Positions 32,050 to 59,469 of a stretch of DNA of 64,000 bases are shown piece after piece. Made by a program: the position numbers and the translations under genes. Origin of the DNA: Pseudocercospora fijiensis CIRAD86 (Eukaryota > Ascomycota > Dothideomycetes > Mycosphaerellales > Mycosphaerellaceae); contig NW_006921542.1 in the NCBI RefSeq assembly GCF_000340215.1, positions 1,640,267-1,704,266 on the forward strand, in the 5' to 3' direction. The notes below the pieces were generated by a model. That model searched no databases. It was not told where the DNA came from and saw only the letters and a list, made by a program, of their open reading frames with translations. Numbering within the stretch: the stretch's first letter is position 1; the number at the start of each line of letters is the position of its first letter.

Positions 32050-33275
32050 AGATTCTTAATATTTCTATCGAATATAGTATCTAGTACTTTTGTAAGCCCG
32101 TAATTAACCCCCTTAATTTCTTTATTATCTAAATATATTAGACATTGTCGCTATATTTCTAACGCTATATTATCTCTTAACTTATCTATTAGACCTTTAA
32201 CTTCTTTATCTTCTTCCGTAGCGGCGGCGGCATTATCTAATAGCATATTATTAGTCTTATTAGGCTCTAATTCTACTATATCGACCCTCGCGCCTATTTC
32301 TTAGAGAATATTATAAAGCGCCGTAGCAATATATACTATCGCTATTTAAGTACGAATATTATACTACGGCGCACTCTTAAAGATCCGGAAGCGTTACTTT
32401 ATTACTCTAAACGTCCGTTTAACGACGTTACGAAGGGAACTATACCTTAGATTAAACAACTCCTTATAGTTAGCTAGCTTTATTATAGCTAGGTATTACT
32501 CTTACAAATAGTACCTTATACTACGGTATAGAACAAGATACGGCGTATTGTTTAGATAGCTAGTATCTACGAGATAATATCGACCTTCCGGCGCCGCAAA
32601 TCTATAGTATAAACGAGCTTTATTAAGTACGCGGCCGTCGTAAGTAGAGCCCTCCTATCTAGCGAGAATAAACGTAAACCTTATATTATACTCTCTAGCT
32701 GCTAATACATTCTACGATAGCGTTCCTTTACGGTTACGGAAGGCCGCCTATTAATCTACTAGTATATATACTAATATATAAGAGCTATCTAGCGCTATTT
32801 GCGGCCCTTTGCCTTAACTACTAGATTGTCGTCTTTATCGGCTAGAATAACGACCTCTAGATATACCTATAGTATAGTAGCTATAACTTTATAGATAATC
32901 CGTTTATACTTGTCTAGAAAGTAAGAGAAGTCTTCCGCTAGGTCTCGAGTATAACTATTAGTTGCAAACGCGTATAAGAATATTACTACTTTCTATTCTT
33001 TGCTAATATATCGGCCGCGCCGTAGATATAGTAATATTAGCTAAAATAGGTATATAAACGTATCTAGTTAAAAGCGAGTATAGCGGTACAATCTTCTCGT
33101 AGTATCTTTAGCTAATAGTAATCTAGTAAAGGCCTCGCCTTTATCGTTTTCTAGGTATAAAGTACGTACTCTAGGAGGGTAAGAAAGCGCTAATCTTTAT
33201 AGTAGTAATACTAGTATTATAAACGAGAAGAAAATGTTACGCTTAACGATCTACTAGCGATAGAGGTCGTCTATT
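32050..33275 (-). pseudogene. PIF-Harbinger transposase, copy B, with full C-terminus
   Basis: Nearly identical to copy A at 19.4-20.5 kb, offset about 12.75 kb. The same DDE landmarks are present: the ALDSS Asp motif, EGSTYDGRVL, RYYLVDTSYL, and ERTFR.IKRRF. Unlike copy A it continues past NNAAAATE into a charged C-terminus (EDKEVKGLIDKLRDNIAL) and on to about 32,050, close to the usual end of the family. RIP stops and His-to-Tyr changes inactivate it. The two copies share RIP mutations and also have private ones, consistent with duplication before the last rounds of RIP. Confidence 0.88.
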
Positions 33276-36194: not shown

Positions 36195-36890
36195 ACTTCC
36201 TTCTAAAGACTAAGACAAACTACTAAACTACGCGAAGAAACATCTAGGTTTATAGATATATCTTCTAGCTATAAGTCTTTTACGTTACGCCGCCCTAAAG
36301 GAGAAAACCTATAGATTTTAGTCTCTAAGGATCTTAGCTAATCTAGTAGAAAGGGGCTATTTTTAAAGTATAATCGATAAGAAATAGACGAAGAAACTTA
36401 ATCTTAAGCTTAAGCTATTCTTCGACTATCTATAGAGGACGGTTCTTTATTATAAACTTAGAATAAGACGGATCCGAAAGAAGCTTAGAATACTCTAAGA
36501 GAATTATACTCCTCGAAGGGATCTAATTCTTAATATATCTTACTAAAATACTTATACTAAACTAATTTAGAATCCGCTAAGAGCGTTGAAAAATACATTA
36601 GTACTATTCGCCGCTTAAAGAAAGAATTTTAGACTAAGGAACTTAGGCTTCCTAACTAAGTTATAATAGCTTAGACCTTTAATAACTTAGGCGATAAATA
36701 TAAGTCTTTCGTAACTAGTTAGACTTAGGTCTTACGTAGCCTTAAATTAGAAGATTGATTCTCTTATTTACGAGGTAAATCGAGACGATATAGTACTAAA
36801 GAAAAAGAAATAGTAGTGGATTCTTTCAAATTATCTTAAAAGCCGCTTAAACGTCTATTTGTAAACAAAAGTCGGAGCGGTTATAGACGA
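36195..36890 (+). pseudogene. Copia-type gag fragment
   Basis: Forward frames align with the gag at 18,000-18,720: AAGACTAAGACAAAC start, the FKV/DGSERSLEYSK region, 'SPLKERILD' and the KLEDLFSN-equivalent region. Degraded by RIP more than the 18-kb copy. It ends near 36,890, before the zinc knuckle, where the sequence changes to unrelated DNA. No protease follows. Confidence 0.6.
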
Positions 36891-40205: not shown

Positions 40206-40394
40206 ACTATTTTGCTATATAGCGAAAGATTAACCTGTTTTCTAGCTAGCAAAGTAGTCTATATCTTATATCTTTTACTTAATCTTACGACCGCCTCGCT
40301 TAGAAGCCCGTAATATATACGTATATAGCTCCCTACTATTCCGAGGCCGATTAGCTCGTAGCTATATACTATCTATACTAACCGCCTACCCGGA

Positions 40395-40402
40395 TTTCTA
40401 AC
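40395..40402 (+). repeat. Left 8-bp target-site duplication TTTCTAAC
   Basis: Identical to 50,293-50,300. Eight bp is the hallmark length for hAT elements. Confidence 0.92.
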
Positions 40403-40544
40403 TAGACCCCGCAGTAGTTCGGTTTCCGAACCACTAAACGTATATAGTTTGGTTTCTTGGCGGCGAACTAGCTCCCTAGTTCCGGTTTGGTTTTTTCGAA
40501 CTATATAGATTCCTAGTTTGAACTAGAGACTGTATTGGTTTTAC

Positions 40545-40835
40545 TATAAGGACACTCTTATTCGACTGCCGGCCACGATTGCCGGCTATAATAGTAACTC
40601 TGTTACATTTACTACGCTCTTTTGCCGTTGCTAGGGCGTAGTTGCCGTTGCTAGGGCGTGGTTTTGCTATAAGGACACTCTTATTCGACTGCCGGCTACG
40701 ATTGCCGGCTATAATAGTTACTAGGTTGTATTTACTACGCTTTATTACCGTTGCTAGGGCGTGGTTGCCGTTGCTAGGGCGTAGTTGCCGTTGCTAGGGC
40801 GTAGTTGCTGTTGCCGGGGCGTAGTTACCGTAGTT
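40545..40835. repeat. Subterminal repeats of the hAT element
   Basis: Two copies of a unit of about 55 bp with CTATAAGGACACTCTTATTC followed by two GCCGGC words start near 40,546 and 40,667. Between and after them lie about seven tandem units of GTTGCCGTTGCTAGGGCGTG. hAT transposases commonly bind short subterminal repeats, so these may be binding sites (inference). Confidence 0.85.
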
Positions 40836-41298
40836 GCGAAAGCTTACCTATATAACGTTACGTAGGCGGCAACAATTAGGGCTTCGCGACATTCTTACAC
40901 TTTCAACTTCTTCCTCTATACCTATACCGATAACAACTACTATACGCTGCGCCCCCGCCCCTTTCCCTTATAATAGCAAGAGAGAAGCGCGCCGCGCGCT
41001 AAACAGAAGATAGAACTAAAGACCGCGAGTTTGTTTTGCCTAAGCGTCTAACTAAAAAGCGCAAGACTAAAGAGGAGTACTCTACGAAGAAGAATTCCGT
41101 ACGAGACCGCGAGAGAAAGGACAAGATAGATAAGGATAAAAGAGCTAAGGATAAGAGAAGAAAGGCGCGGAATAAGGCATTCTATCGATAGCTAGCGCCT
41201 ATAGAAAAAAGTAAAGGTTAGAATAAGAAGACAATCTAAGAGAAGGCTAAGAGGAGGAAAGAATTGCGGCTAGTTTTCGAGCGTAAAGTTCTAGCAGC

Positions 41299-41405
41299 GT
41301 AAGTCAATCTAGCTAGCGGCCGTAGCTAGCAGCTATAGCCGGCAGCCGTAGCCGGCAGCTATAGCCGGCATATTTTTCTTTAACACGTTAACTAATAGCA
41401 TTTAG
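41299..41405 (+). repeat. Transposase intron 1 filled with GCCGGC repeats
   Basis: Donor GTAAGT, branch-like TTAACTAA, acceptor TTTAG. The interior carries four perfect GCCGGC motifs as TAGCCGGCA units at 41,336-41,372, after a variant GCGGCCGTAGC near 41,315. Reading frame is restored exactly (GC|A). Confidence 0.85.
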
Positions 41406-41886
41406 ACCTATAGTCGCTACCTCTATCGATACGACCGATAGTAACGGAGATGTTTAGATAGCCGAGAACAACAATGCTAGAGTTTAGGATGCCGCGACAG
41501 AGCTTAATGCTGCGAATAAAGGAACTAAAAAAAGCGAGGAGATACTATACGTCGATCTAGTAACAGGTGCAGTCTTAGGGCCTAACGCTATAGACGATAA
41601 GCGCTAGGAGTAGATCGAGCACAGTTAAAGAGACGAGATACTAGTAAAGGGCTAAGGTATAAGTCCTATCAATCTAGAAAATCATAGTTAAAGCTACTAC
41701 GAAAAGCTAGCAAGGATTGGAATCGAGACTAGTCGTCTTTATATCCTCGATATAGAGTAGAAGTTTCTTTATTAGTATTAGAGCGAAGCCTTTGCGTCTA
41801 TAAAGGCAAAGTGGCTTGCGATTAATACGATCGGGGCTAGGTATCTAGGGACGGCAGAAGTGTTACTATAGGAGGAAGGGGTATAG

Positions 41887-41952
41887 GTAATTATTCTATA
41901 CTCGGCATATATAGCCGGCGTTCGTAGCCGGCAGATACTAATAGTTAAACAG
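41887..41952 (+). repeat. Transposase intron 2 with two GCCGGC repeats
   Basis: Donor GTAATT after TAG (formerly CAG), branch TACTAAT, acceptor AACAG, phase 0. Contains TAGCCGGCG and TAGCCGGCA. Confidence 0.85.
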
Positions 41953-42386
41953 AAAGCGTTTCTCGAAGGCAGAGTGCTACTACTATATAAAATCTTTACT
42001 AAGGCAGAGAGGGCTTGTATCCGGAATCTAAGCTACTAGTAGGATAGGTTAGCGTTGGAATTCTCTAAATCTCTATATAAGCCTCCGAAGGATTACCTAT
42101 TTCAGCGATACGGCTTTATCTCGACTACTCCGTAGGCACCCGAAGAAGCTCGAGCGCTCTTTAAGGTCTTTACTAAGAAGCGGAAGGAGTTCGAGGATTA
42201 GGATTAGTTAATAGAGCTATTAGTTAGTCTTAGGTTTCGTAGTCAGACTCGGCCTAAGCATTTGCTTGTCGAGTGTCTTATACCGAAAGAGGATAGATTG
42301 AGACTAAAAACGAGCTTAGATTCGTTAGGTATAGTAGCTCGGTTCCGTTAGTAGGAGAGAGCCGCCGTATAGAAGGCAAAATTCAG

Positions 42387-42520
42387 GTAGTTAGGGTAGC
42401 TAGGAAAGAAATTCTAGTAGTTAGGCTAGCTAGGGTAGCTAGGAAAAAAAATCTAGTAGTTAGGTAGCTAGGAAACAAAAAAAAAAGGTAGCTAGCTATT
42501 TACTGCCTAGCTGTTCCTAA
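42387..42520 (+). repeat. Transposase intron 3 region with GTAGCTAGGAAA tandem units
   Basis: The donor is at CAG|GTAGTT. The interior is built of repeated TAGTTAGGGTAGCTAGGAAA-type units and A-runs. The acceptor could not be fixed. This is the only clear transposase intron without GCCGGC; it has its own tandem repeat instead. Confidence 0.55.
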
Positions 42521-43282
42521 CGATACGATGCTATAAAAGAAAGGGTGTTTCTCTATAGCTACTAGTACACATCTACTACTCCTAAGTCCTTACCTTACCG
42601 TACGAAACCTTAAAACATACCGACCGACATTGTATATATACTAGGCGCTACACTAGGAAGGGTAACAACGAGACGATAGTCGAAACAGTCTAGTATACGA
42701 GCGAGATTGCGACAACGTCGAGAGGAGGTCGTATACTCACCTTCGAGCCTATCGAGTCCTAGACTACGATTAGGGCTAGATTTATCCTCTCCGAATCCTA
42801 GTAGTAGGAATTTATTATAGGGTACTACTACCTAGTCCTTACCTTTACGGAGTCTAAGCAGAAGGTTATTCGGAGATATAAGAACATCGAGTATCAACCC
42901 GGAAATCTTCGAAAAGGCTAGCTAGGCGTATCTTTAGAAACCCGAGTATATAGAGCAGTTCAATTAATAGGTCTATAAGATATAGTTCCCTTTATACTTA
43001 CGTTCGAAGGAGTGTAAACTCCGGAAGTACTCGATGCGATAGGGGAGTAAGGAGCGAACGGACACATTCTAGAAGTTCTTTATAGAGGGGGCATTGCACC
43101 GTTATACGACTTCTCGACTTAAAGGTCAACTAGTAATTGTCTATAACTTCTACGGTTTAATCTTGAAATACCCGAAACTAGGGGATAGGAACTTATCGCC
43201 TACGAACCATCTCTATTCTAAACGGTATCGGGAATCTTAAGGAGAGAGGAGAGTTAATATAGATATAGCGTTCTAGAAAGAG

Positions 43283-43382
43283 GTATATCTTCTAAAATGC
43301 CGGCTACAGCTACCGGCTACAGCTACCGGCTATAGATTCCGGCTACCTAAATCAACCGTAGAGATCTAGCTAATTATTATAG
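43283..43382 (+). repeat. Transposase intron with a GCCGGC and three CCGGCTA variants
   Basis: Donor GTATAT after AAAGAG, branch-like GCTAAT, acceptor TATAG, phase 0, followed by the exon that leads into the catalytic domain. The repeats read GCCGGCTACAGCTACCGGC and onward, the orientation opposite to introns 1 and 2. Confidence 0.8.
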
Positions 43383-44316
43383 GCTACGCTTAAGGAAGCT
43401 CTAGGATTAAAGGCTACCGATTTCTCCCCCGAAGACTTTAAGCAACTAGCAAACGAAATGCTAGCTACAAACGGTCTTCCGGAAGACTTCTACGAAAGGG
43501 AGTCTATATAGAAGACATACCTATGTCTTACAAACTACCCTCCCCTATTTCTCGGCGCGACAACCTAGCGTATTATGTTCGAAAAGAACAAAGAGGCTAC
43601 GTTAGACGACATTCGGGAGATCCTCCGTAATACTCGCCGAGTAGCTATTACTATCGATAGCTAGTTAAGCCGGACTATAAGAGCCTCCTTCCTCTCGATT
43701 ATACTATACTTTATCAATTCGGATTAGAAACTCTAGGAACTTATAATCGGATTCCCTGAAATTCTAGGTTCCTATACTAGTAAGGATATAGCGAAGCTTG
43801 TCTATACGGCAATAGATAGGGTTAGCGTAACAACGAAACTAATCTCGATTACTGCGGACAACGCTAGTAATAATCGAACATTGTATAAGGCGTTGTATAT
43901 ACAATTCACTCGCATATGTCTTTAAAATTACTAATTGTATCGATAGGGTCGAGTACGTAGAGGAGATTACAAGGTCTATAATCTAGCTTAATCTTCCGAA
44001 TATTAAGCTCGCTACGATTCCGGATACGCACGACAATACGCACGATAATAACGATAAAGAGGAGCCTATTAATAGCCCTAGCCCTATTAAATCGGAGCCG
44101 ACGTCGTTGCTAGTTACATCCCTATAGAAGTTTCCCTACCTCGCTTATATAGTTCAAATCGCGATCCGAGCCCTCTTTAAGACGCTTAAAATTACACTAT
44201 TAAACGACGACTAATAGAAGATCCTAGATAAGGATAAAGCAAAGTCGAAAGTCGAGAAACTTATTATAGCAATAAGACGGGATAAGGCAGAGAGCCTCGC
44301 TCTCGTTTTGTATAAG

Positions 44317-44385
44317 GTATAACTTTTATCCGTAGCCGGCACCTATAGCCGGCAACCTAGTATAGTTCTAACTCTTTTTCTCTAG
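44317..44385 (+). repeat. Transposase intron with two GCCGGC repeats
   Basis: Donor GTATAA, branch TTCTAAC, acceptor CTCTAG, 69 bp, phase 0. Contains two TAGCCGGCA units. Confidence 0.87.
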
Positions 44386-45901
44386 CTTCGTCGTCTAGCA
44401 ATATATACGAACTCGAGCTTATAGAGATATAACCGATTCGAGGCTATTTAAAAGAACCTAATCGAGCGCCCTAAAACCGATGCCTAGAATATCGCATAGA
44501 ATAAGCGATAGCAAAAGCGGCCTCCTTAGCGCCTACTCCGTTTTACCTAAGACGTTAAGACCCGGTTCGATTCGACTTTCTATATAGTTACGAGGGGATG
44601 TACTTTACGTACCGCTCTCGAGATCTATTAGAGTTCCGAGGGTATTAAGTAGCTCGGCCTTACCGCCGCCGAATAGCGCTAAGCAGAGTATCTCGTCGAT
44701 ATTAGTAAGCATTACGCGAAGGTTACTGCTACGATTAGAAGAACCCGAGGACCGACGATCCACCTTGTCTTTGCGTACTATAACTAGCTCTTTAACGAGC
44801 TCGAGGAAACCGTAGCTAAGCTAGCTAGGAAGAGCGTTCCCTAGAAAGTAGCTATAACGAAAGCTATAGATACCTCCTATACTAAGTTGTATAAATATTA
44901 TAGTACTACCTTTGACTTATTCGGGGATATCTATAGCGTTGCGTGCTTGCTTAACCCGGTAGAAAAGGATATATACTAGTAGAGGCCGGAATAGAAGGCG
45001 GACGAGATATAGCCGAAGCATTACTAGACTATTCTAGAAAAGATGTTCTACGAGCGTCGGAAAGAAACTAGTCCAAATGCAGCTCCTATAAAGAAAAAGA
45101 AGGTTTAGAAGGCTCCGACATTATACCTGTTTCGTAGGTAGGAAGTAGAGGCAGAAGAGGAAGCAACTACTAAAGTGAATAAAGAAGAGTTCGATCTCTA
45201 TCGGCGCGCGAGTAAGTACAAACCCGTAGGCTCGGAAAGAGGGCTAATAATCTCTAGATCTTACCGGTCTTCTAGACGAATTCGGAGACGATATTCTCGC
45301 TATATAGCAGCGGTTAGAGCCTAAGTTTCCAACGATAGCGTCGGTCGCTCGGGACGTCCTCGCTATCCCGAGCGTAGGTATAGGCTATAAGAGGTCTTTT
45401 AGTATCGCTCGTTACTAGGGCCGCTTTAATCGAACATACTCGCCTACTACCTTCGAATCTATTATAGTATTCCGATACTATCTCCTCTACTAGAATCGCT
45501 AAGGCAGGTTACTAAAGATTATACTAAAGGAGTTAATCGAGGAATTAGAAAACCTTAAGATCGAAGAAACCTAGGAGCGCGAAGAGAATACGAAATTTAG
45601 TCTAAGCGAAACCCTAATTAGCGATAACGAAGAGGAGGAGGGCGGAGGCAGAAGGCGATACCGGGTCGAGAAGCGGAAACGTATACAGGCTTAGAGCAGC
45701 TTTAAGGAGACGAAGCGTTTACGTATAAGGTAATATAGCCGGCGTATATAGCCGGCATATATCCGAAATGTGTTTCGAATTCCTAGGACCCAAACAGACT
45801 AGTTGCTATAGCAACCGACCCCGCTTACCTATAGACTATTTCTAATTCTCTATTCGCTCTTCCTCTCCTTCTTCCCTTTCCCTATATTCTTAAAGACAAA
45901 C

Positions 45902-47436
45902 ATGCCTTAAGGATTCGGCTCTTCGGGCCTTCCTAAGCCGGCTGCCTCCCCTTCCTTAAGCTACTATCCTTTATTCGAATCTAACGATAACCTAATAAGG
46001 CGGTTTAATAGAAGACTATTTGTTCTAGAAGGCAAGAAGCATTAATGTCTCCTTACGATTATATGCTTATTAATTTCTAGGTCCTACCGATATACCCTCG
46101 TCGCCTAAACGCGTAGATAAATATCTTTAGAGGCTAAAGGGCAAGGGTAAAGCAAGCCAAGTATAGGGAGACCGTAGCGAGAACGAGATATCGGAAGAGT
46201 AAGGCTCTCCGTAGTATATACGAAGGAAGGGGGTTCCTCGGAAAACAGTACCGAAAAACAAGAAGGCTATAGGTAGACAGGAGAAGGCTAAAAAGAGTAG
46301 GCGGACAAAGACTATCGCGAAGAAAAGTTATCTTTCTATTAAAAGAAAGGGAACAAGGCAGGACTCGACGATAAAGAAGCGGCGCTTTAAACTAGGTACT
46401 ATTACCCTTCGCTAGATCCGGCTTTTCTAAAACAAAAGAGGGACCGAGCTTTTAATCCCTAAGACTCCCTTCTAGCGACTCGTCCGAGAAATTACATTAG
46501 ATTTTCGGTCTAGTATGCGATTTACGGCTAAGGCGATTAGTGCTCTTTAGGAAGCTACGGAGGCATTTCTCGTAACCGAGCTTGAGCTTTTAAACCTCCT
46601 TACTATCTATACGAAGCGGGTTACTCTTCAAAATAAAGATATGCAGCTTCTAGCTAAAATTCGGCGTCGGTTTACAGCGGATTAGTTAGAAATTGTATTT
46701 AGTCGTTAGATTAACCTAGGAGGAGGCCTATTTTCGCATCGTTTTGCCGGCTATAGGTGCCGGCTACATTTCTAATTTTATCTCCGCGCCGTCCCTAAAT
46801 CTAAGGTACGAAGTAGAAACCTAGCGCTCTATATTCACCCGGCTATTACAGAGACGAGCTACATTTAGATTAGTTTCTTCGCATATCGCAACCTAGCGGG
46901 TAGTAAGCGAAAGGGCGATAGAACGTTTATAATACGTCTCTATTTAGACCTAAAACACAAAGGTCTTAAGGAGCCCTAGCATCCTAACTATAAGGAGATT
47001 CTTTAGCATTAGCACTTTGATCCTCTATACTACGAGGCAGATAGCAAGCCTACGAGAGAGAAACTTCAACGAGAAATTCTCTATAATGCGTAGCGCTATT
47101 GCATAGCTACAGATGCGTACTAAGTCCGGCAACTCGAAGAAGAATTAAGACAGCGTATTAGCGACCGAGGAGGAGATCGATAGTATACTAGTAGAGTCGA
47201 GGTCTTATAAGCGAAGCACAAGATAATATAGGCTCTTAGTCGTATAGAGTAACGTACTATATAAATAACTAGGCGTGCTACTCTTATTTACTTACGACCT
47301 ATATCCTAGGATGCTCTTCTCGTACTTTTTATACTCTTTTCTAATACCTTACCTATAAGCGCTCCGCGATAACCGAGTAAATATAAGCTGTCGGGTTTCC
47401 GCTCGGTACCTTAGCCTTCGAGATACGGCGGAGTTG
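45902..47436 (+). pseudogene. Histone H3-like gene 1 (H3 core, possible CenH3-like traits) with long C-terminal extension
   Basis: An intact ATG (45,902) opens a Lys/Arg-rich tail region whose exon structure is unclear; an 'ARTRYRKSKALR' string (about 46,174-46,209) resembles the H3 tail start. The H3 core runs 46,373-46,671 in one frame: FKLGTITLR.IRLF (alpha N), ELLIPKTPF.RLVREITLDF (alpha 1), SALQEATEAFLVTELELLNL (alpha 2), YTKRVTLQNKDMQLLAKIRR (L2/alpha 3), with Gln codons turned to TAG. AFLV and RVTL recall CenH3, but loop 1 has ordinary H3 length. The same frame then stays open (TAG only) for over 200 more codons, 'SYIQISFFAYRNLAGSKRKG'-type and 'REKLQREILYNA' (Q partly inferred), unlike any known H3. 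Two GCCGGC words (46,745-46,764) may mark an undetected intron there. Confidence 0.82.
46373..46671 (+). other. Histone H3 core domain of gene 1
   Basis: Covers alpha N to alpha 3 without indels relative to H3. Expected contacts are visible: the PF.RLVREI helix and the KRVTL loop 2. The Ala-Tyr-Leu-Val of H3 alpha 2 is AFLV here. The L1 segment 'DFRSSMRF' matches H3 spacing. Stops in the domain are three TAG codons at H3-equivalent or plausible Gln sites. Confidence 0.88.
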
Positions 47437-47797
47437 ATTCTCTATAATACGTAGCGCTATTGCATAGCTATAGATACGTACTAAGTCCGGCAACTCGAAG
47501 AAGAATTGAGACAGCGTATTAGCGACCGAGGAGGAGATCGATAGTATACTAGTAGAGTCGAGGTCTTATAAGCGAAGTTCAAGATAATATAGGCTCTTAG
47601 TCGTATAGAGTAACGTACTATATAAATAACTAGGCGTGCTACTCTTATTTACTTACGACCTATATCCTAGGATACTCTTCTCGTACTTTTTATACTCTTT
47701 TCTAATACCTTACCTGTAAGCGCTCCGCGACAACCGAGTGAATATAAGCTGTAGGGTTTCCGCTCGGTACCTTAGCCTCCGAGATAGGGCGGAGTTG
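47076..47797. repeat. 361-bp direct tandem duplication
   Basis: 47,076-47,436 and 47,437-47,797 are near-identical head-to-tail copies beginning ATTCTCTATAAT(G/A)CG. They lie in the C-terminal extension of H3-like gene 1. Differences are few (for example GATGCG/GATACG, AAGCAC/AAGTTC), so the duplication is recent relative to most RIP. The period is not a multiple of three (361 = 3x120+1), so copy 2 is out of frame with copy 1. Confidence 0.93.
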
Positions 47798-47799
47798 AA

Positions 47800-48325
47800 T
47801 TTAGAGCGATAGTCGGCACCCGTAGCCGGCATATAGAGACGGTAGTAGGCCTTTTTCTACTAAATAAATAGCTTGTTTAGTATAGCCTACCTAATATTTC
47901 TTATATTTACTAGCAATAGGCCTAGGTTACTTATAAGATTACTATAGCTAGTAAAGGCATTACTAAAGAATATCTATACTATAGTAGGATACTATTATTA
48001 CGCCGGCTATTTATTAAAAGGAGGCTTTCGCCTATTACTATGCCGGCTACATATACCGGCTATATTTCAAAGTCTGCCGTACCTGCCTTTTTCAGCCGTA
48101 CCTGCCTTCTTTCCTTGCTCTAACGTTACTATAATATAGGCTTGCGCGAAGCTTACTCTATTGCCTAGCGATACCGCGACACTACCTCTCTCGCTATATT
48201 TAACCTTCGCATCGATACCTATACCTCTACGCTCTATATCTACTACCTCCGCAATACCCTCGCTCCGCGCGCGCCTTCGTATACCTTCGTAACGCACTTT
48301 TTTCCTCAATTCGACGACTTTTATA
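47800..48325. promoter_or_regulatory. Intergenic region upstream of H3-like gene 2
   Basis: Holds GCCGGC words at about 47,815-47,832, 48,003 and 48,042-48,060, then a repeated CTGCCGTACCTGCCTT / CAGCCGTACCTGCCTT unit (48,073-48,112) and a pyrimidine-rich tract before the start codon, a common feature of fungal promoters. No clear TATA box. Open minus-strand frames across it look fortuitous. Confidence 0.45.
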
Positions 48326-48590
48326 ATAGCGAATCCACTTAACTAAGTTACGACGCCTCGTAAGAAGGGACCTACTGCTTCTACGGGTCGCAACAAGATC
48401 GGAAATAAAGGAACGAGTATAGTACATTAACGCAAGATAGCTGCTACTGCTGCCGCTAGCTCCGGTGCTAGAAAGGGCGTCGCGAGCAAGGCTCCGCGCA
48501 AGACAACGGCGGGCAAGGCTCTACGTAAGACGACAACTAGCGCTTCTACTACTAGTAGCAATCGTACGAAGCGTCGATAGCGCCTAGGAA

Positions 48591-48681
48591 GTAAGTCCTA
48601 TTTATAGCCGGCAGCGTGGCCGGTAGCGTAGCCGGCAGCGTAGCCGGCATTCTTACTATCTTTTTACTAATCCTTCTTTAG
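48591..48681 (+). repeat. H3-like gene 2 intron 1 with GCCGGC repeats
   Basis: Donor GTAAGT, branch TTACTAAT, acceptor TTTAG, phase 1. Contains four units of GTAGCCGGCA type (48,606-48,650; one GGCCGGTA variant). Confidence 0.88.
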
Positions 48682-48864
48682 CCGTAGCCCTCCGTAAGAT
48701 TCGGCAGTATTAGAAGAGTTCTAAGCTCCTAATCCGCAAAACTCCTTTCTAACGACTTGTTCGCGAAATTGCCTAGGATTACAGAATAGACCTTCGCTTC
48801 TAAGCCTCCGCGATAGGCGCCCTTTAAGAGGCTATAGAAGCCTACCTAGTTCGTATCTTCGAAT

Positions 48865-48912
48865 GTATGTTTCTCTTCTACCTCTTTTCGGACTATACTA
48901 ATACTATTTTAG
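48865..48912 (+). other. H3-like gene 2 intron 2 (48 bp)
   Basis: Donor GTATGT, branch TACTAAT, acceptor TTTTAG, phase 1. It splits the alpha 2/loop 2 junction (FE|S VNLIAIYAKR). No GCCGGC repeat. Confidence 0.88.
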
Positions 48913-49139
48913 CGGTCAACCTTATAGCTATCTACGCGAAGCGTATAACGATTATAGACAAGGATTTCAAAGCACTCGATCAGATCCTAAAAGGCTAGAA
49001 TGTCTACATTCGAGATAGTAGTAGATAGGATAGATGTACTAGTAGGAAGGATGTTCGTAGTGTCGTCTATAAGCTTTTCTATATGCGAAATGAGCCGCTA
49101 TTATACGGCGCTATATACCGCGCTCTAAATACTCTCTAA

Positions 49140-49322
49140 GTATATATATATAGTATAGTATGCTTTATTGGCCGTACGGAATGGAAGTCTCCTAAAATCC
49201 CGTTAGTACTAAGGAGTAAAAAGGCCGGCTACGCTGCCGGCTACGCTGCCGGCTACGCTGCTAGCTACGCTACTAGGTTTTTCAAAGAACTAAAAGAAGA
49301 TAGACATTCCGGTTGATTTGTA
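49140..49322. other. Intergenic region between convergent genes, with GCCGGC repeats
   Basis: Three GCCGGCTACGCT units at about 49,223-49,255, followed by two decayed units (GCTAGCTACGCT). This is the shared 3' side of H3-like gene 2 and the minus-strand accessory gene. No terminator-like hairpin beyond the palindromes themselves. Confidence 0.7.
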
Positions 49323-49862
49323 TTAGTTTAGATTTTTATAAAAAGAAAACAGGGAAAAATAAGGAAGGTTAAAGAGCCTAATAGTTATAGTTATAGGCAC
49401 TATCCCTGTTTTCTAGAGCATATTATACACCTGCCTTCGCAACTCTACCTAATACTCCCTCTAAATATCCTTATACTCTACCTACTAGAAATTCAACTAG
49501 GTACCTAGACCTGTAGCTGCCTCTATATCTTTTACTATCTTCTACAGGTTGAAGGCCTCTTCTATAGCAGCCTCTACCTCCTTATACAACACGAAGTTAC
49601 TACCTGCCCTACCCTTTATATCTCCTAAATAACTAAGAGTTCTAAGGAACGAACTAGCATTCGGCCTTAGTATAGCGAGTGACTAGTAGAACGTTCTGTA
49701 GAGCTGCCTTATAGCTCTTTTATATACTGTGCCGATACCGAGGGAGGAGCCATCCTAGTACTTAATGTTGTCGAATAGTTCGGTAGGAAAGTGTATAAAC
49801 TTCTTAAGGAGGAGGACTTCTAGGGAAATCGATAAGTTCTACCTAGATCTAGATGAAGACAT
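49323..49862 (-). pseudogene. Accessory gene of the hAT element, unknown function (179 codons)
   Basis: A minus-strand frame from ATG (49,862) to TAA (49,323-49,325) is exactly 180 codons, interrupted only by TAG codons at plausible Gln/Trp sites. It begins MSSSRSR and continues with NLSISLEVLLLKKFIHFPTE, then 'LGIGTVYKRAIRQLYRTFY' and a Glu/Lys-rich helical C-terminal half ('VEAAIEEAFNL.KIVKDIEA') that may form a coiled coil. It converges on H3-like gene 2. A RIP-mutated homologue occurs at 6,919-7,235 next to a transposon terminus, so it is a family component rather than a chance frame. No domain recognised. Confidence 0.7.
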
Positions 49863-50079
49863 TCTGCTAAGCAGTTAGGGAATTGAACCGTAAACGAAAG
49901 GATGAAATTTATACCTAAGGAGTGCAGTTTCCGAACTGAACTATAATGCCTTATATATGTGTGTGTGCTTTTGATTAGTTAGTGCCCTTAGCTAATTGTC
50001 TATAGATTTGAGGTTATATAAGTACCTTTATACAACTACGTAGCCTAAGTAGGATTCGAAAATTCTATAAGTACTAAGG

Positions 50080-50292
50080 ACTAAAAATGCCGGCCACGCT
50101 GCCGGCCACACTGCTAAGTCTTACAAAGGGCTTGCTTGAAGCTACGTATACATTCGTACACTTCTTAAAAACCGATAAATTATATGGTTCGAACTAGCTA
50201 CTTATATAGTTGCTTAGCAAACCAACCTAAACTAAACCAGAGTTTCGGCTTAGCAAACCAAACCAAACCAACCCGAACCACTGCGGGGTCTA
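50080..50292. repeat. Right end of the hAT element
   Basis: Two GCCGGCCAC units (50,088-50,108), then AACCAAACC-type short repeats (50,218-50,272) and the terminal GAACCACTGCGGGGTCTA. The reverse complement matches the fragment end at 6,537. Confidence 0.9.
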
Positions 50293-50300
50293 TTTCTAAC
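50293..50300 (+). repeat. Right 8-bp target-site duplication TTTCTAAC
   Basis: Perfect match to 40,395-40,402, directly after the terminal TCTA. Confidence 0.92.
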
Positions 50301-50419
50301 TAGTTTATATCTACGCTATACTAAGTTATATTCTACGCGACCTTCGCCTTATTATCTTCCTATATACTATTTATAGTAGATACGGCCTCTATAGAGATAC
50401 TATTAAGGTTTAGGTTAGA

Positions 50420-53400
50420 TAATCCGCGCCTTAACTACTTTAGTCTATTAAGGAGGCGATAGATATACGTCCGTTAATGCGCTCTTACGATTAATATATT
50501 ATTACGATCGAGATTATTAGGGTTATAAGAACTACTCCTAATACCTAGGGACCTATATACCGGAAAGATACCGTTTCGAGGATTACTTCTATTATCTTCC
50601 TTAATATCGTATTATTAAGTACGTAACTTGCCGATACGCCGTATCCTCTCGCTATTTTTATACTTACCTTAGCCGCTAATACCGATATACTATTCCTAAG
50701 GCTATCCGTCGCCTTCTTATCGAAGAATTCGAGTCGCTCCCCGATATTACTATAATACCCGACTAGGTAATTTAGCCCTAGCTAACCGACGATTAAGCCT
50801 CGGAGTTCCCGCTCTACTTCGATTATTTCCGATATACTACTATCGACGAATAGGGCGAATAATATATAGCTATCTTTTATAAGCGTACCTCGATATAAGA
50901 GTATTATAAAACGCGATATAAGTAGACTAATACCTAGACTCGGGGCGGTAGTAGAAAAGCCCGCCTATAAGAGATACCTAATCGCCTATAGGAGAGTAAT
51001 ATCTACGTATAGCAATTCTTCTACTCTAAAGCTAGATACGAACCTAGATAGAATCGCGTATTCTAGGTCTATTATCGCGCTCGTATAGTACCTATTCCCT
51101 CCTTATCGTATAACGACTAATTTACGTCTACTCTAATTAAAGCCTAGGCCGATATCCGGGAGAAACTAAACGAGGATCGAAATGTCGTTTACGATAGCTT
51201 AGCCTACGTATCTACCCTCCCTCCCTAGATTTAGTAACTCTTTATCGACCTTTACGTCGTCTTACTCTATAAAGACGAAATATAGGCCGCTATTTACCTC
51301 TCTAAAGAAGATAATAAGCCCTATACCGTAGAAGTTATCGCTATCGCTCGCTAAGCGTTCTCTTATATAATAAAGCATTATAGCGAAAGTAGCCTCTATT
51401 TTAACCTTACTAATTCCCGTAAGTAAGCCCTCGCTAACTTTTATAATATAATATAGAAGTCCGACTATTATAAATATTTTCGCTTTCGGCGCTATAAAAT
51501 CCGCTCGAGCGAACTTAAATATACCGACGCTATACTATATACGCTAGTATATTTTATTCGTTATATCTCCCCTAAAGTTCTATTTTTCCCTTCTATAATA
51601 TCGCCTACTAATAAAATTAACGACGACGTCGATAGCGAAGTCGCTAGTTAAGTAAGCGATAAAGTCGACGAAAAAGTCGACTATAGCCTTATTTAAGTAA
51701 CGCCGACCGACGAATAGCGCGAACTCTAGAATAAACTTAGCGACTACGTCCGAAGTAGTATTACTAAGATAGAAGAACTAGAATTATATCCTCTTATTTC
51801 CTAGTTATTACTCTCCCTATTCTAGTATCTAATTAGTAGTTATTAGTTCTACTTTCCGCTCCTTAGCTACCTCGCTCTTTATATAGTATAACTATATTTA
51901 GGCGTATAGCGGGAGCCGAACGACTTTAATTACTATCTCTCCGCTATTATTTAGATAGGGCAACTCCTTATATTTAACTACTCCTAGCGTTATAACTAGG
52001 GCTTCGACCGCGACGACGAAGTTTTAGAGACTATTTAGTACGAGATAGAGTTACTCTTTACGCGAGAGACCGCTATCCGAGAAATTGTCCGCTAGCGTAG
52101 TACTCTCTTCGCCTTTACTAGTAACTATATATCGACTAATTAGGCTATCTAGGCCGCCGATAGTAAATCCGTTTAATTTAGGGATATTATACTACGAGTT
52201 ATAGACCTAACTACCCTACTCGAGTATTACTATCGATAGGCGTATAAGATTCTACGGCGCGACCTCCTTTTCGGACTCTCGTATAACTCTATCCCCCTTA
52301 CCGACTTTTATAACTGCCTCGAAGAAACTACTATCTACTTTAGCTTTCTCTAGGATAAGCGTAATGCTACTATCGTTAACCTAGCTCGGACGTTCGTTAT
52401 TAACGCTATCGCTAGTAATCCGGCTCTATTATATTTATACTTAGAGGCTAGTTTATATATACTCCGCCTTAGCTCGGTAGTCGGCGTATATAAGTATTGC
52501 GTCTAAGAGTTCCTTTAGCTACTTAGCGTCCTTATATTTATTAGTAGTAGTTAGCCTATCCGCGAACCCGAATTCTTCTTAGCGATATAGCGTAATACTT
52601 AGTCGGTCCGCTCTATTACTATCCGAGATAGGTACATTATAATTTACCTAACCTATACTAAGCTCCGCTAGAAGCTAAATAATAAATAAAACGTCCGCTT
52701 CCTATTTAAGCTCGGCTACCTACTTATCGATTACCTTATATATATTTAACTATTTCGCGAGCTCTACTAGTATTAATCTAACCCCGAGTAGGTACTTAGT
52801 CCTTTCCTCTAGTCTAAGGACAACCTTATTTAGTCGGATAATACTATAATCCGATACCTTCGTTAATAGACCGTAGCCGCTAGCCTACCTACCTTCGGTA
52901 TTAGCGAGTAGCGTTACTTCTCCGTCGCTATTATTAAGAAATTCTTTAGTAAGTTCGTAGGCTTCGATTAATTAGATATAGACGACGAAGACGACGAGGT
53001 CGACGATATAGAGATAGCTATAGCTAGGTAGCGTAACTATAGTCTCTATACTACTAATATTTTATATACTAACGCTAATCTATTCGCCGCGTTATCTAAC
53101 TTATAGGATAGCTTAATTTAAGGCGGGTACCGCGCGTCTTATATCTAGTCGAACTTCCTCTAGCTTCCTACCGCTATTACTCGCTACTAGAGGACCTAGC
53201 CGTCGCTAGGTAGCTCTATTAGCAACCTCTTAGCACTCGAGAATAGTAGTCTCGCCCCTGTCTTTACCCTCGATAAAGCCCTATAGTACGTATACGAAAT
53301 TATATAGGACTTGTAGCTATAGTAGAAGAGCGAGGGTTAAGCGACCGCTATACGATAGATCCTCTTCCTTAAGGCCCGACTACTCGTCGTCCTCGGTACT

Positions 53401-55120
53401 AGCGCCGGTAAGAGTCTCCTCTTTATAGTTCCTTACTATATAAAAGGTATACGGACTACTATACTTATCCTTCCTCTAGTTACTTTACGAGTTAATATAC
53501 TCGCCCGACTTAAAGCCGCTAAAGTGTCTTACGTAGTATAGTAACTAGGAATAGAGCGCCCCGCTTCTCTTATCCTAGTTAGCGCTAAGGCTACCTACTC
53601 TACCTAATTTATTATATATATATAGCGTCTCGGCGTCTAGAACTAGCTCGATCGTATCTTTATCGACGAGTACTATTTAACTATAACCGCGTTACCGTAC
53701 CGCTCTATCTTTTGCTAATTTAGCTATCTTAGGTCGATTAGTACCTAGGTCGTCTACCTAACTACTACTCTACTACTATCGATAGAACCTAAATTCCTAT
53801 AGCGTAACGTTATCGCCTAGCCTATAATAGTATAGCGGAGTACTAATCGCGCTAATATTATATATTATATTTCCTTATACTAGTAGGTATAGTTACTCTT
53901 TATAGCTATATAACTTATTAAGAAGTAACCTAGGGCGAGTATATTTGTATCTAGCGATCGCGTCCTAGTATTCGTATATAGTCTCGACTACGCCGAGTAG
54001 CTAGCGAGGGAAATTAATTGCCCGTACTTTACCGCCGCTAGTAGAACTACTAGCGAGAAAGAATAGCTACTCGACGCCTAGCTTAATAGTACTAATAATC
54101 TATTTCTTATCGCTACTTCTACGCTCGGCGAAGAATTCGACGTACTACGTATTCGGGTTATTATCTACGTCGGCCTCCTACCCTTACTAATATTATTCGT
54201 ATAATAGTCTAGTCGCGCTAGGCAAGACAGAAAGCTAGTACTATCTTACCTCCTACTACTAACCGAACTAACTATACTAGTAATAGTCGACTAGAGTAAG
54301 CTTAGCTTCGATTAATACTCTTACGTAGATAACGTTAGTTATATATAGTAGCGCGAGAGGCAAGTTATATAGCAATATACTCGCGTAGGTAAATGTTTAC
54401 GTCTAATTGTGTCTAATTACCTCGATAGTCCCTAATTCCGCCTAACGTATATATCTAACCTAGACGATAGTAACGAGCTTTACTAACGATATATATACCG
54501 ACTAGTACTGCCTCTAACCTAGCCCGAAACGCCGTAGGCTTAGGCGATCCGTTAGTAGACCGCCTATTTCTAGCGTATCTAGTAAAATAAAGCTAGTAGT
54601 ATAATATAGTTCGACCGTAACCTCGCTATTATCTAATAACTATATACTATCTGCCGCTTCGTTAATCCCTACCTCCCTATATACTAATTCTCTTAATGCC
54701 TACGCGCTAACTTTATAGTTACGAAGAAGAGGCAAGCGCTCTAGGCTAGGCCGATCGAGAGGTACTATACCTACTTCTGCTACTATTTCCCTTTTACTAT
54801 ATACTAGGAATATAGCAAGCAAATACGGAGTTATTAATAGCTAGACGTTGTGTAGCTAGTCGCTATCGGCGTGTTCTAGTCGCTATAGATAGGTCCTACT
54901 TAGATCTAGGATAAATTCTAGTACTAATTTAAAACGCTAGAGAAATACCTTAGGTAGATAACTTAGAGTACTATATAGGATAGAGAAAAGGATATCTAAG
55001 GTGTTCGTCTCTATACTATCGCTATCGAGCACGTTCTAGCTAGGAACGTTAAACTAGATCCGGTACCCGCTAATAACTATATAGAGTAGGAATTCTAGAC
55101 GCTAACTATTTCGCTAGCCG
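50420..55120 (+). pseudogene. RecQ-type helicase resembling telomere-linked helicases (TLH)
   Basis: One forward coding direction spans about 4.7 kb. The N-terminal and middle parts are long and unassigned (an acidic 'DIDDEDDEVDDIEIAIA' near 52,980). The helicase core shows LLVVLGTSAGKSLLFIVPYY (Walker A, about 53,382-53,441), RIFIDEYYLTIT (DExH box with Cys and His now Tyr, about 53,655), STLGEEFDV-like sequence, and SSRAR.D (motif VI of RecQ enzymes, about 54,213-54,227). These helicases unwind DNA; long relatives with this GxxAGKS form are frequent near fungal chromosome ends. Stops are RIP-type throughout. The hAT element inserted about 120 bp upstream of the first recognisable coding. 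Confidence 0.8.
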
Positions 55121-58050
55121 GAAAAAAAAATAATAATATACCGGTCGTACTATTTACTTTTCTATCTAGTAAAATAGTCGGTACGTAGCTATATTATCGC
55201 TATATTAACTTAGTAGTTAGGTAGGAGTAATAGTCTCTAATCTACTAACGACATTATTATACTAGTATCCTTATTAAATTAATAACGCTATAGCGTCGCT
55301 ATACTTATACGCTATAGTATAAGATATCTACCGACGTTAGAAGTAGAGTATAATAGTTATAGCTAGTATTTACCTATATCGGTAGACCGTTTAAGTTAAA
55401 TACGGATAGAGCGTAGTTAGTCGAGATCTAAAATATAAACTATCTATATACCGAACTACTATTACTCGATATATTCTACTCTCTCTATCCTTACCCTAAC
55501 CGCCTCCTCGTCGCCTTTTGTCTACGTTATATATTAACCTACCGACGATAAGGTACTAATAGTATCGTCGCCCTTCGTCGGAGTATTTCCGCCTATAGAC
55601 TTATTATCTCTACTACTATCTCTACGATCTATTCCTCTAGTACCTCTATACTTAGCTACTCCTTATTTACTATTTGCCCTTATACTATCTAGCTAGCTAA
55701 TAAATCTTCCTCTACGCTCCTCCTTTCGCTTACCCTCTATTTATCGTAGCCTTCGCCTAGTCTACCTATTCCTCCCTTATTAACCTCTATTATGCCTTTA
55801 CTTAATCTACCTATTACTCTCTCGTTAACTTCTATTATGCCTTTACCTACTATTATATTACTACCTACCGGTATACTATCTACCTAATCGCTAGGCCTAT
55901 TAACCCGCGCCTACGTCGCTAACTTATCTAGTCGCTATTCCCCTATTTCTATCCTATAATAGTATATTTCCTATATAAATAAAAACGCTATATATTCTAC
56001 GTAATATAACTGTTTCTCCTCCGCCGAGAAGCTCGCCTAGTTATACTATAGAAGTAGTAGCGGTCGCTCGTATAACTATCGTTATATTAATATTCTATCG
56101 CAATACTCGGCTATATTACTAGTCGCTAGCGCTAGCTCGGTATAACTCGCTAATATTTAGTAGTCGGCTATCTCTATAGTCTTACTCGTATTTACGCGAC
56201 GGCTAGCCGTAGAGAGAAGTTTCGGAATAGCGACGTGCTCGAGTAGTTTAGTAGGCGAAATCGGATAAATATAGGATACGGACAACCTCTAGAACCGACG
56301 TTCTCTTATATCTTTCCTCGCTATATATATTAGACTACCTACCGTATCGCTACTTTGTCTATTACTATAGCCGATCCTACCTTACGTCCTCCTAGAACTA
56401 TATGTAAACTCGATTAAATTTTACTATATAGCTCGTACCTACGCGTCTGCCTCTACTTATTATATACTATTTCTTTTACTATATACTACTCGCCTACGTA
56501 CTCTCTCTAGTATACTCGAATAGCGCGGTTATACTATACCGCATTTCGATCTAGGCGTCGTATTTAAAATCCGCGTATATAAGTTAGGTTTAATATAATC
56601 TCTCCTCGTACGTCGTCGTATATTATCTATCGTAATCTCTTATATTCCCTCTAGCCTCTACTATTACTTAGGGGTCGAGCGCTAATACTATAGCTCTCTC
56701 GCCTCGTATTTATATATACTATCGACGGCGGCTAATAAAGTACTACTTACCCGGGTTATTTCTCACTACCGGTATCTACTTTATACCTATTATCCTAGCG
56801 AGTACGCTAATACCCCGACCGATCGACGTACTAGCTTAGTTTCTACACTATCGTGCCAACTACAGGCCTCCTCTAGTAGTTAGGTCAGATCTCGCTAGTA
56901 GAGGATATACTCGGTTAAGTCGGATTATATCCTATATAACTTAAAGTAGATATACTTACTAGATAATCTACCGGTTTTTCCCTATTTCGCGATACCTATA
57001 TTAAAATACTAGAACCTATTAGTAAAAGAGTCGGCTAGATCGAGTATTATTAGATATAAGCTATTTATAGAGATCTTATACATTAACCTACTTATATATA
57101 TAGTATAGTTAATACTACGCCGTAGTGCCGCTAAACATCGCTAGCTACGCATAGGAGGTAATACCGGAATATCTATATCTAGCACTTCTATTATACGAGA
57201 CTCTAGCGTTATATAACCTAGGGCTAATCTACTAAACGACGATTAGATACTAACCGGTTTGCTAGGCGGTAAACTATATTGTCTATATTACTTTTACTAG
57301 CTAGCAAAATAGTTAGTACTCTCGTATTATAATTACGGTTATAGTAGATACGTCTACTAGCTATAGGTCGTAGTATAGTAACGCTACTAAGGCTCGAACC
57401 CTAATTACGCTATCTATCCCTAGATATAGCTCGACTATTATATCTCGCTAACTAGATTTTATCGTATATCGTCTATTAGGACGTCCGGTATACTATCTAT
57501 ACCGTTATCGTAGCCTTAGCTATCTTAGTCTAGTATATTCTTACTTACCTAGTAGTCTACTATTATCTAATCCGGCTATTATCGAGGCAATCCGATATAT
57601 CCTTACGTTATAATACTAACTAACTCGTATACGGACTTATTAGGCTATATACTAGTTTATATATAGTTATTATATATATAATAAAATACTACGATTAACT
57701 CGGTTAGTATTCGGTTCTTAAAACTATTAACTCGTAATATCGTAGAATAGATAGCAGTTAGTTCGTCTACCCGGGATATACGTTCGAAATTATAGTATAT
57801 TTTCGAACGACTCTAATTCTCGAAAACTAATTTCTCCTCCGATCGATTAGATAATAACGCCCTAATCTAACTATATCTTTTATTATTTATCTACCCGAAT
57901 ATAAACCTACTATAACCGAGATAGTCCGAGCAAATTAGTAACCTTACTACCGCTAAGATTTACCCTAATCGTTACTAACCCTCGGGTCTAGCTTACTTAC
58001 GTATTACGCTCTATATACTAACGGCGTTTTCTATAAGAAGGGTTATATTA
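55120..58050. other. RIP-decayed coding-like sequence, unassigned
   Basis: Probably continues the helicase repeat unit or a neighbour. It includes an imperfect tandem repeat of TCTATTATGCCTTTAC (about 55,785-55,860). A RIP-poor word CTACACTATCGTGCCAACTAC occurs near 56,840-56,860. No domain recognised in either direction. Confidence 0.35.
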
Positions 58051-58690
58051 GTAGGTAGATAGGGTAGTAGTGAATTAGTATAGTATTCGATAGAGATCTA
58101 AAAGGAGAGGGAGGAAGGTAGGCTAGTTAGCCTAACGCTAAGCGCTAAGCCCTGCCTAAGGCATTAAGACCCTAGCTTTACTCGAGCCTAGTTATATACT
58201 AATTACGTGTAACCTCTTTAGTCCTAACACACGCTTCCCTTCTAAAGGCCGCGCCCCCGTAGCCGGTCTATATCCTATTCTTAACCTCTGTCGCTACTAA
58301 CTTAGCAGGTCTAGTAAGCTTCTTAGTCCGCGCTAAATTGAACACGCAATTACCGATTATGTAACTATGTCAAACCTTACCTCTAATATAATATAATGTC
58401 TAACTCTAACTGCGCTATCCCTATATATAATAAAGTAATATATAACTATAAGAATTAAGGACTATCGACTAATTATAATACGAGCGCGTCTTCCCTACTA
58501 TAATAGGTAGACGTACGAGGTATTGTAGCACTGCCTCTGTTCTAAGTAATGTCGTATCGAGTTCTTTACGTCTACTCTTAAAAGACCTAGCAATGTCCGC
58601 TTCCGAGGGTTTGTCCGTTCCGAGGGTTATTATTCTTATTGTTCGTAGTTTCGCTAGCCCTAATTAGCTAGGTTTAGTAGCCTTTAAGTG
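58050..58690. other. Non-coding stretch with lower RIP signal
   Basis: Contains more CA/TG and GC-rich words (CTAAGCCCTGCCTAAGGC, GGCCGCGCCCCCGTAGCCGG). Two TCCGAGGGTT words occur about 20 bp apart near 58,600-58,630. No gene seen. Confidence 0.4.
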
Positions 58691-59407
58691 TTAACTAATT
58701 ATATCTTTTTAAAAAACTCAGTTCTTCTAGTTTCTATAGGTAAAGGCTATTATAAGTATAGTAGTAGAGGTTCGCCTCGCTTAAAGGGTTAGATAGATCG
58801 AGGAGTAACCTATTATCCGCAAGATCGACCCTAGCTAGCTTAGCTCTATAGTTTTGCCCTTAGTTAGTTAGTCTATTAGTCTACTTAATCTTTTAAGCGG
58901 CTTAAAGTTTTGACTTAGCCTTAAAGTTTAATTAAAGTTTTGATTAAAGGTGCCTTAGAGTTTTAGTATAGGTAAGGTCGATAATAGTAAGTAATATTAA
59001 CAATAGCGACGCTAGTCGTCTTAGCGCTAACTTTACCTTCTTCTAATTTCCTTCTTTAACTAATAACAACTCGGTAAGACCGTTACTAATATAGCGGTGT
59101 CCTTCCTTTCCTAAACATTAATACACTCCGTAACACTGTTACTAATATAGCCGCGCCGGCCGCGCCGTCCTTGCCGATTGCCTAGGCCTCGAGGCCTCGA
59201 TAGAATAAAGGAATAAAAGGGGGACCTAAGTGCTAGGAGAAGGCCTTATAGGGCGCATTAGTAAAGAGGTAGAGCCCTTAAAAGAGCGTACGATTAGTTA
59301 ACGCGTCGTAGCGCGCTTGTTAACACTCGGTGCGCGTTTACTATAGTAGTGTAGTCTTATTGTCTCTTATTGCTAACAATTGCTTGCAGCTAATTAGTTA
59401 GCTAACA
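58689..59407 (-). repeat. Probable 3' LTR of the minus-strand Gypsy element
   Basis: On the minus strand the chromodomain is followed by a stop, the purine/GC segment CTACCCCGGGGTGC and then TGTTAGCTAACTAATTAG (from 59,407 downward), a good LTR start. The outer end is uncertain: 58,689 (TGTTAACTAA on the plus strand) is a candidate, but TGTTAACACTCGG near 59,319 would give a much shorter LTR. The 5' LTR lies outside the window. Confidence 0.45.
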
Positions 59408-59469
59408 GCACCCCGGGGTAGCATTAATCCTAGGCCTTAATAGTAACATTATAAGCTTTTAGTCTTCTT

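Follow-up and report, generated by a model that had tools for sequence, protein, structure and literature searches.

A RIP-degraded hAT element of Pseudocercospora fijiensis carries two histone H3 genes whose reading frames were kept in three subfamilies

Introduction

Elements of the hAT superfamily that carry histone H3-like genes have been described in fungi. For Pseudocercospora fijiensis, the available text of Dhillon 2019 (PMC6710886) describes a hAT element of 9.5-9.9 kb with 20-bp terminal inverted repeats (TIRs), an 8-bp target-site duplication (TSD) and either a single H3-like copy or two, in which case the second is 16 residues longer. The same text reports 784 H3-like sequences, all broken by repeat-induced point mutation (RIP) of the CpA to TpA type, and one intact three-exon host H3 gene on scaffold 6; it reads the element H3 as a captured, truncated host transcript and finds no nucleotide similarity between the P. 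fijiensis and Pyrenophora elements. In the available parts of Manning 2013 (PMC3538342), a hAT of Pyrenophora tritici-repentis contains an expressed H3-like gene, and altered chromatin is suggested as a possible effect. Here we analyse a hAT element with two H3 genes at positions 40403-50292 (9,890 bp) of a 64,000-nucleotide stretch of P. fijiensis CIRAD86 (contig NW_006921542.1, positions 1,640,267 to 1,704,266; hereafter the window), where it lies inside a RIP-mutated block.

An earlier note on this DNA, made from the letters alone, knew of no described case of H3 genes on a transposon; the available parts of the two papers above describe such cases, and the H3-carrying element is already known, ours being likely a member of the published P. 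fijiensis family. It had been taken for the dead capture of a host gene. What we add is evidence that its two H3 genes, here called H3-A and H3-B, are common to three subfamilies and conserved in frame, and that H3-B appears to bear introns. The literature searched, which included few subscription papers and did not extend to bioRxiv, yielded no more recent description of H3 genes carried by hATs; the available parts of PMC9594970, PMC7348808 and PMC8616336 add nothing on these H3 genes.

Results

Two histone H3 genes between the termini of a hAT element

The 20-bp TIRs (TAGACCCCGCAGTAGTTCGG and TAGACCCCGCAGTGGTTCGG) agree in 19/20 bases and are flanked by the TSD TTTCTAAC, identical on both sides in 8/8 positions. 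Short TIRs and an 8-bp TSD, the latter present as GAAGTAAA around a copy on contig C12, place the element in the hAT superfamily together with a C-terminal dimerisation domain (22.0 bits, see below), which bears out the earlier note's claim of a hAT with inverted termini and a perfect 8-bp duplication. In the genome searched (73.9 Mb, 30 contigs) the TIR pattern with at most two mismatches occurs 421 + 414 times, against 2 + 1 times for a reversed control, so the termini exceed chance. The ends and the two H3 genes are as follows.

40395..40402, no strand: left TSD TTTCTAAC (flank comparison)
40403..40422, plus: left TIR, 20 bp (end comparison, genome pattern count)
46104..46706, plus: H3-A, an N-terminal extension and tail, then the intron-free fold at 46395-46682 (profile, alignment)
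48347..48590, plus, 5' limit approximate: H3-B tail exon with repeat-length polymorphism (reading frames, copy comparison)
48591..48681, plus: putative H3-B intron 1, 91 nt, GTAAGT...ACTAAT...TAG (splice signals, comparison with host H3)
48682..48864, plus: H3-B fold, first part (reading frames, alignment)
48865..48912, plus: putative H3-B intron 2, 48 nt, GTATGT...ACTAAT...TTTTAG (splice signals; its length equals the published 16-residue insertion)
48913..48998, plus: H3-B fold, second part (reading frames, alignment)
50273..50292, minus: right TIR, 20 bp (end comparison)
50293..50300, no strand: right TSD TTTCTAAC (flank comparison)

The presence of two genes with an H3 fold, as the earlier note had proposed, was upheld by matches of two stretches in the element to PF00125 (E 4.5e-37) and by alignments: H3-A can be aligned to H3 chains of known structure from the tail through alpha 3 (best E 5.7e-26) and H3-B across the histone fold; profile and alignment together span the H3 fold, beginning with alpha N and ending with alpha 3. 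Loop 1 is short in both, as in H3 and unlike the long loop of the host CenH3. Stops interrupt both genes in the window copy.

The H3 genes travel with the termini. Genome searches scored the best 150 candidates each. Among the first 100 TIR places there are 20 convergent pairs 8-11.2 kb apart, 19 of which enclose at least one listed H3 and 13 both. Of the 61 H3-A matches listed (contigs C1-C5), 46 are followed on their own strand by an H3-B at a distance of 1.5-3.2 kb, and none shows the wrong order or strand. Hence neither outcome that the earlier note had named as fatal to its proposal, no other copy of the termini with the H3 genes or host genes caught in a chance interval, was encountered. 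The spacing of the two genes falls into two classes, ~1.95-2.1 kb (23 copies) and ~2.3-2.45 kb (23 copies), so that a 300-nt tandem duplication between them (listed below) is probably missing in about half of the copies. The search for intact copies with the same gene order, also suggested in that note, succeeded in part: the order holds in three subfamilies, but of the best 150 scored among 772 histone candidates 148 contain stops, and the other two are the host CenH3 and the host H3, which is intact, has two introns and lies on contig C6.

Reading frames kept in three subfamilies

The family comprises a main subfamily, F1, and two others, F2 and F3, all with H3-A and H3-B in fixed order. The C12 copy is an F2 example of 8.6 kb with nucleotide identities of 76-86% by segment; F3 was found at seven places, six of them on contig C13. 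Comparisons between the three drew on 4 F1, 5 F2 and 3 F3 copies of a family that numbers several hundred, the F3 copies coming from 3 of the 7 places. As RIP yields transitions only, each base was reduced to its purine or pyrimidine class, and the counts are of sites at which the subfamilies show fixed differences.

Subfamily-fixed insertions and deletions (indels) are multiples of three in 10/10 rows within the H3 exons, compared with 2/14 rows in the spacer at 47860-48330 (1/9 events) and 2/10 rows in the H3-B introns. Fisher's test of 10/10 in exons against 1/9 in the spacer gives 1.2e-4, with exon rows left unmerged and spacer rows merged by hand. Between F1 and F2, frame-keeping indels number 0/10 in other non-coding DNA, 2/3 in the transposase pieces and 2/3 in the ORF1 (open reading frame 1) pieces. 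Moreover, the H3-B tail exon has five lengths among 16 distinct copies, all equal to 2 modulo 3, in a count that required two anchors and missed one copy (L047). This exon contains a repeat of KAPRKTTAG-like units (window 48460-48560) whose number varies between copies with the frame kept.

Substitutions point in the same direction for H3-A. Differences at RIP-proof positions amount to 12/288 in the H3-A fold, 35/263 in the H3-B fold and 87/469 in the spacer, the H3-A fold being 4.4-fold slower than the spacer (P 1.7e-9). When H3-A (46287-46706) and the H3-B fold were pooled, 27/229 third positions differed versus 29/454 first and second positions (one-sided P 0.013). Both H3 genes retained their reading frames as F1, F2 and F3 diverged, which makes both likely to have been working genes of the element.

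Putative introns in H3-B

Intron 1 of H3-B separates the tail from the fold; host H3 intron 2 has the same phase and a position one codon further upstream. In the 48-nt block read as intron 2, ACTAAT stands at branch-site distance, and the borders of the block coincide with the surplus residues in the H3 alignment. This combination of signals occurs once in the window on both strands, here only, against a shuffled mean of 0.05 per strand. All 150 scored H3-B places, the best by score of 794 candidates, match across 336 nt including the block, which the query itself contained. The block is most likely an intron, although it is open in frame and could conceivably be a coding insert. H3-B thus differs from a processed copy in having two blocks with splice signals, and capture of a spliced transcript, as published, does not fit it; H3-A, whose fold is intron-free, may be a processed copy. 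Subfamily differences at RIP-proof positions are 1/90 in 48591-48681 and 0/48 in 48865-48912, below the adjoining exons (35/263) and the spacer (87/469).

Divergence, phylogeny and the ARKS motif

Fold identity to the host H3 is 54% (48/89) for H3-A and 63% (53/84) for H3-B, so neither is a recent copy, and the two share 52% (44/85) with each other. The corresponding values in an F2 copy are 54%, 53% and 46%. In a phylogeny built without A_C11b, B_L034 and B_C20a (start missed by the pattern) and without P0042, 11 H3-A rows form one group (support 98/97) and 10 H3-B rows another (100/100). As each group includes F1, F2 and F3 members, the element already carried both genes when the subfamilies diverged. 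This H3/CenH3 tree, which the earlier note had recommended, gave a clear grouping of either gene and a less decisive answer on centromeric origin: joining H3-A with CenH3 is 12.2 log-likelihood units worse and is not favoured, nor is it rejected by the approximately unbiased (AU) test (p-AU 0.216). The same test does not reject H3-A and H3-B as a single clade (p-AU 0.523); one capture and two captures both fit the tree.

The motif ARKS forms the contexts of K9 and K27, the methylation sites in the tail of canonical H3. In the host gene it surrounds K27 within the exon, and K9 across the first intron. It was found in 0/12 H3-A and 0/12 H3-B stretches, that is, in none of the 24 element stretches; ARKG occurs at one place in the window H3-B. 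Judging from the codons involved, loss of ARKS by RIP alone would be rare.

A search of a protein collection with H3-A gave 58 matches among 337 candidates, mostly ordinary or unplaced H3. One of them, P0024, an H3-like protein of 220 aa on a 56-kb environmental contig, shares two stretches with H3-A, the unusual E-ELS that closes alpha 2 and TELLIP, which precedes alpha 1. It groups with H3-A (84/88) on a long branch, has no genomic context, and is possibly an intact relative; a search for it in viral contigs found none. A further profile search (A1) returned 7969 matches, of which the 120 listed were mostly long animal and plant H3 gene models, and its result was not used.

Transposase, other reading frames and neighbouring repeats

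The remaining features of the element are these.

41003..42381, plus, borders approximate: broken 5' frames (ORF1, basic then neutral), no Pfam match
43404..45730, plus, 5' limit provisional: hAT transposase, broken into four pieces or more (reading frames, domain search)
45290..45454, plus: hAT C-terminal dimerisation domain PF05699 (22.0 bits, cut-off 21.4)
46743..47261, plus: ORF-X, a broken frame 3' of H3-A, no Pfam match
47076..47736, plus: tandem duplication of 300 nt, 97% (47076-47375 and 47437-47736, 361 nt apart; self-comparison)

The dimerisation domain (Dimer_Tnp_hAT) lies in the last transposase piece, just over the Pfam cut-off (E 1.5e-4). No Pfam match above cut-off to an RNase-H-like catalytic domain was obtained in the four RIP-damaged transposase pieces. 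The domain scan covered the window apart from its outer parts and the minus strand of 50293-59994. A bridge search to other species with one frame-2 transposase piece gave 0 homologues at E 1e-5 among 4543 candidates. A broken frame free of Pfam matches lies at 49400-49884 on the minus strand, in a region missing from the C12 copy and present in F3 copies. Introns and spacers over 41318-50112 repeatedly contain short GCCGGC-based repeats (units of 12-13 bp), some in one orientation and some in the other, and a scan of 40300-50400 for tRNA genes found none.

Elements of ~0.37 kb with these same ends lie within or beside F2 copies, at 6736-7107 of a C11 copy (joined L030/L029, reverse strand), where both sides are bounded by the TSD GTGCTACC, and at 9302-9684 of a C17 copy. 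They look like non-autonomous derivatives. Upstream of the hAT element the window has remnants of a DDE_Tnp_4 transposase (32310-32747, minus, E 9.3e-16) and of a copia-type gag (36402-36788, plus, E 1.2e-6).

Discussion

We read the locus as a copy, broken by RIP, from a published hAT family whose H3 genes kept their frames, were likely working genes of the element, and are predicted to have given altered H3 nucleosomes that weakened silencing; for this reading as a whole we estimate a probability of about 0.55. While active, the element would have made its transposase and two altered H3 proteins from spliced and translated messages. These proteins could have paired with host H4 and entered nucleosomes, perhaps on the chromatin of the element itself, which would then be unable to take the usual K9 and K27 methylation. 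Weaker silencing would have let the element go on being transcribed and transposing, up to the time when RIP riddled its genes with stop codons. The functions suggested in the earlier note (escape from silencing, altered H3K9 marking, a decoy subunit) are likewise hypotheses, to which our analysis adds the kept frames of both genes and the absence of ARKS from the stretches read. A broader proposal, which we make only tentatively and think unlikely, is that some fungal hATs hold H3 variants lacking ARKS as standing equipment, acquired more than once by separate lineages, and that the resulting nucleosomes, which the host could not mark as heterochromatic, would act as a counter to silencing and RIP.

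Several results weigh against the genes having been maintained. The H3-B fold changes at nearly the speed of the spacer (P 0.08, a weak difference). Taken singly, the codon-position signal is not significant in H3-A (P 0.12; fold only, 0.17), with H3-B at 0.039, and there is none in the tails or the H3-A extension. A two-subfamily simulation gave 10/15 nonsynonymous changes in H3-A where 12.2 were expected (P 0.12) and 17/26 in the H3-B fold where 21.1 were expected (P 0.036); the tails showed no nonsynonymous deficit. Three of the 10 exon indels fall in the single H3-B tail repeat. Finally, a supposed first exon of H3-A at 45902-46050 has a 1-nt indel (0/1 frame-keeping), which speaks against that exon. 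Frames and introns nevertheless speak for genes that were maintained; the case is clear for H3-A and weaker for H3-B. Both probably served the element as functional genes and were not host sequences picked up by chance.

The published alternative is transduplication: a hAT captured a host H3 transcript and multiplied it as a functionless passenger, and RIP killed the copies. This was put forward for H3-carrying hAT elements in the available text of PMC6710886 and agrees with the intron-free H3-A fold, the stops in nearly all scored copies and the fast change of H3-B, but it has to contend with the two intron-like blocks of H3-B, one of them beside a host intron place, with the frames of both genes kept in three subfamilies, with the strong conservation of the H3-A fold, and with identities to the host H3 too low for recent copies. 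We regard it as possible but rather doubtful. Frame conservation would equally support genes that worked away from the chromatin of the element, as decoys, by changing the dosage of host histones or by steering integration through nucleosome contacts, and altered host chromatin was raised in what is available of Manning 2013 (PMC3538342); this we hold to be quite improbable. That host H3 genes lie by chance between unrelated termini has next to no probability, and the TIR-pair and H3-A/H3-B linkage counts refute it, with matching TSDs flanking both the window copy and an F2 copy.

Should the maintenance of these histones be confirmed, the nucleosome itself would be a place where a transposon can contest silencing. 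The role of H3 genes in hATs is directly testable in the intact Pyrenophora relative, and the interest of the case would rise greatly if an intact relative showed an effect on chromatin. The locus also illustrates how RIP can keep annotation from recognising reading frames and introns, and how purine/pyrimidine coding recovers traces of selection with no need to reconstruct sequences.

Compared by description with the available account of the published P. fijiensis H3-hAT, our element agrees in length, TIR, TSD, the 48-nt surplus in the second H3, RIP, and the host H3 on scaffold 6 (contig C6). That account, in the parts available, is given without introns, dimerisation domain or other features, whereas here we find putative H3-B introns, a dimerisation domain over the cut-off, readable tails, three subfamilies and kept frames. 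The Pyrenophora H3L element, as far as the accessible parts of PMC3538342 describe it, is alike in having a hAT transposase, an extra ORF and an H3-like gene, distinct from both H3 and CenH3, with tail insertions; it is unlike in its 5.6 kb, its one H3, its 26 near-identical and mostly intact copies, and its expressed sequence tags. Plant capture of the Pack-MULE type, as presented in the available portions of PMC3538342 and PMC6710886, likewise involves DNA transposons bearing host-derived genes, but in our case the same pair of H3 genes has stayed with the transposase through three subfamilies, with its frames kept.

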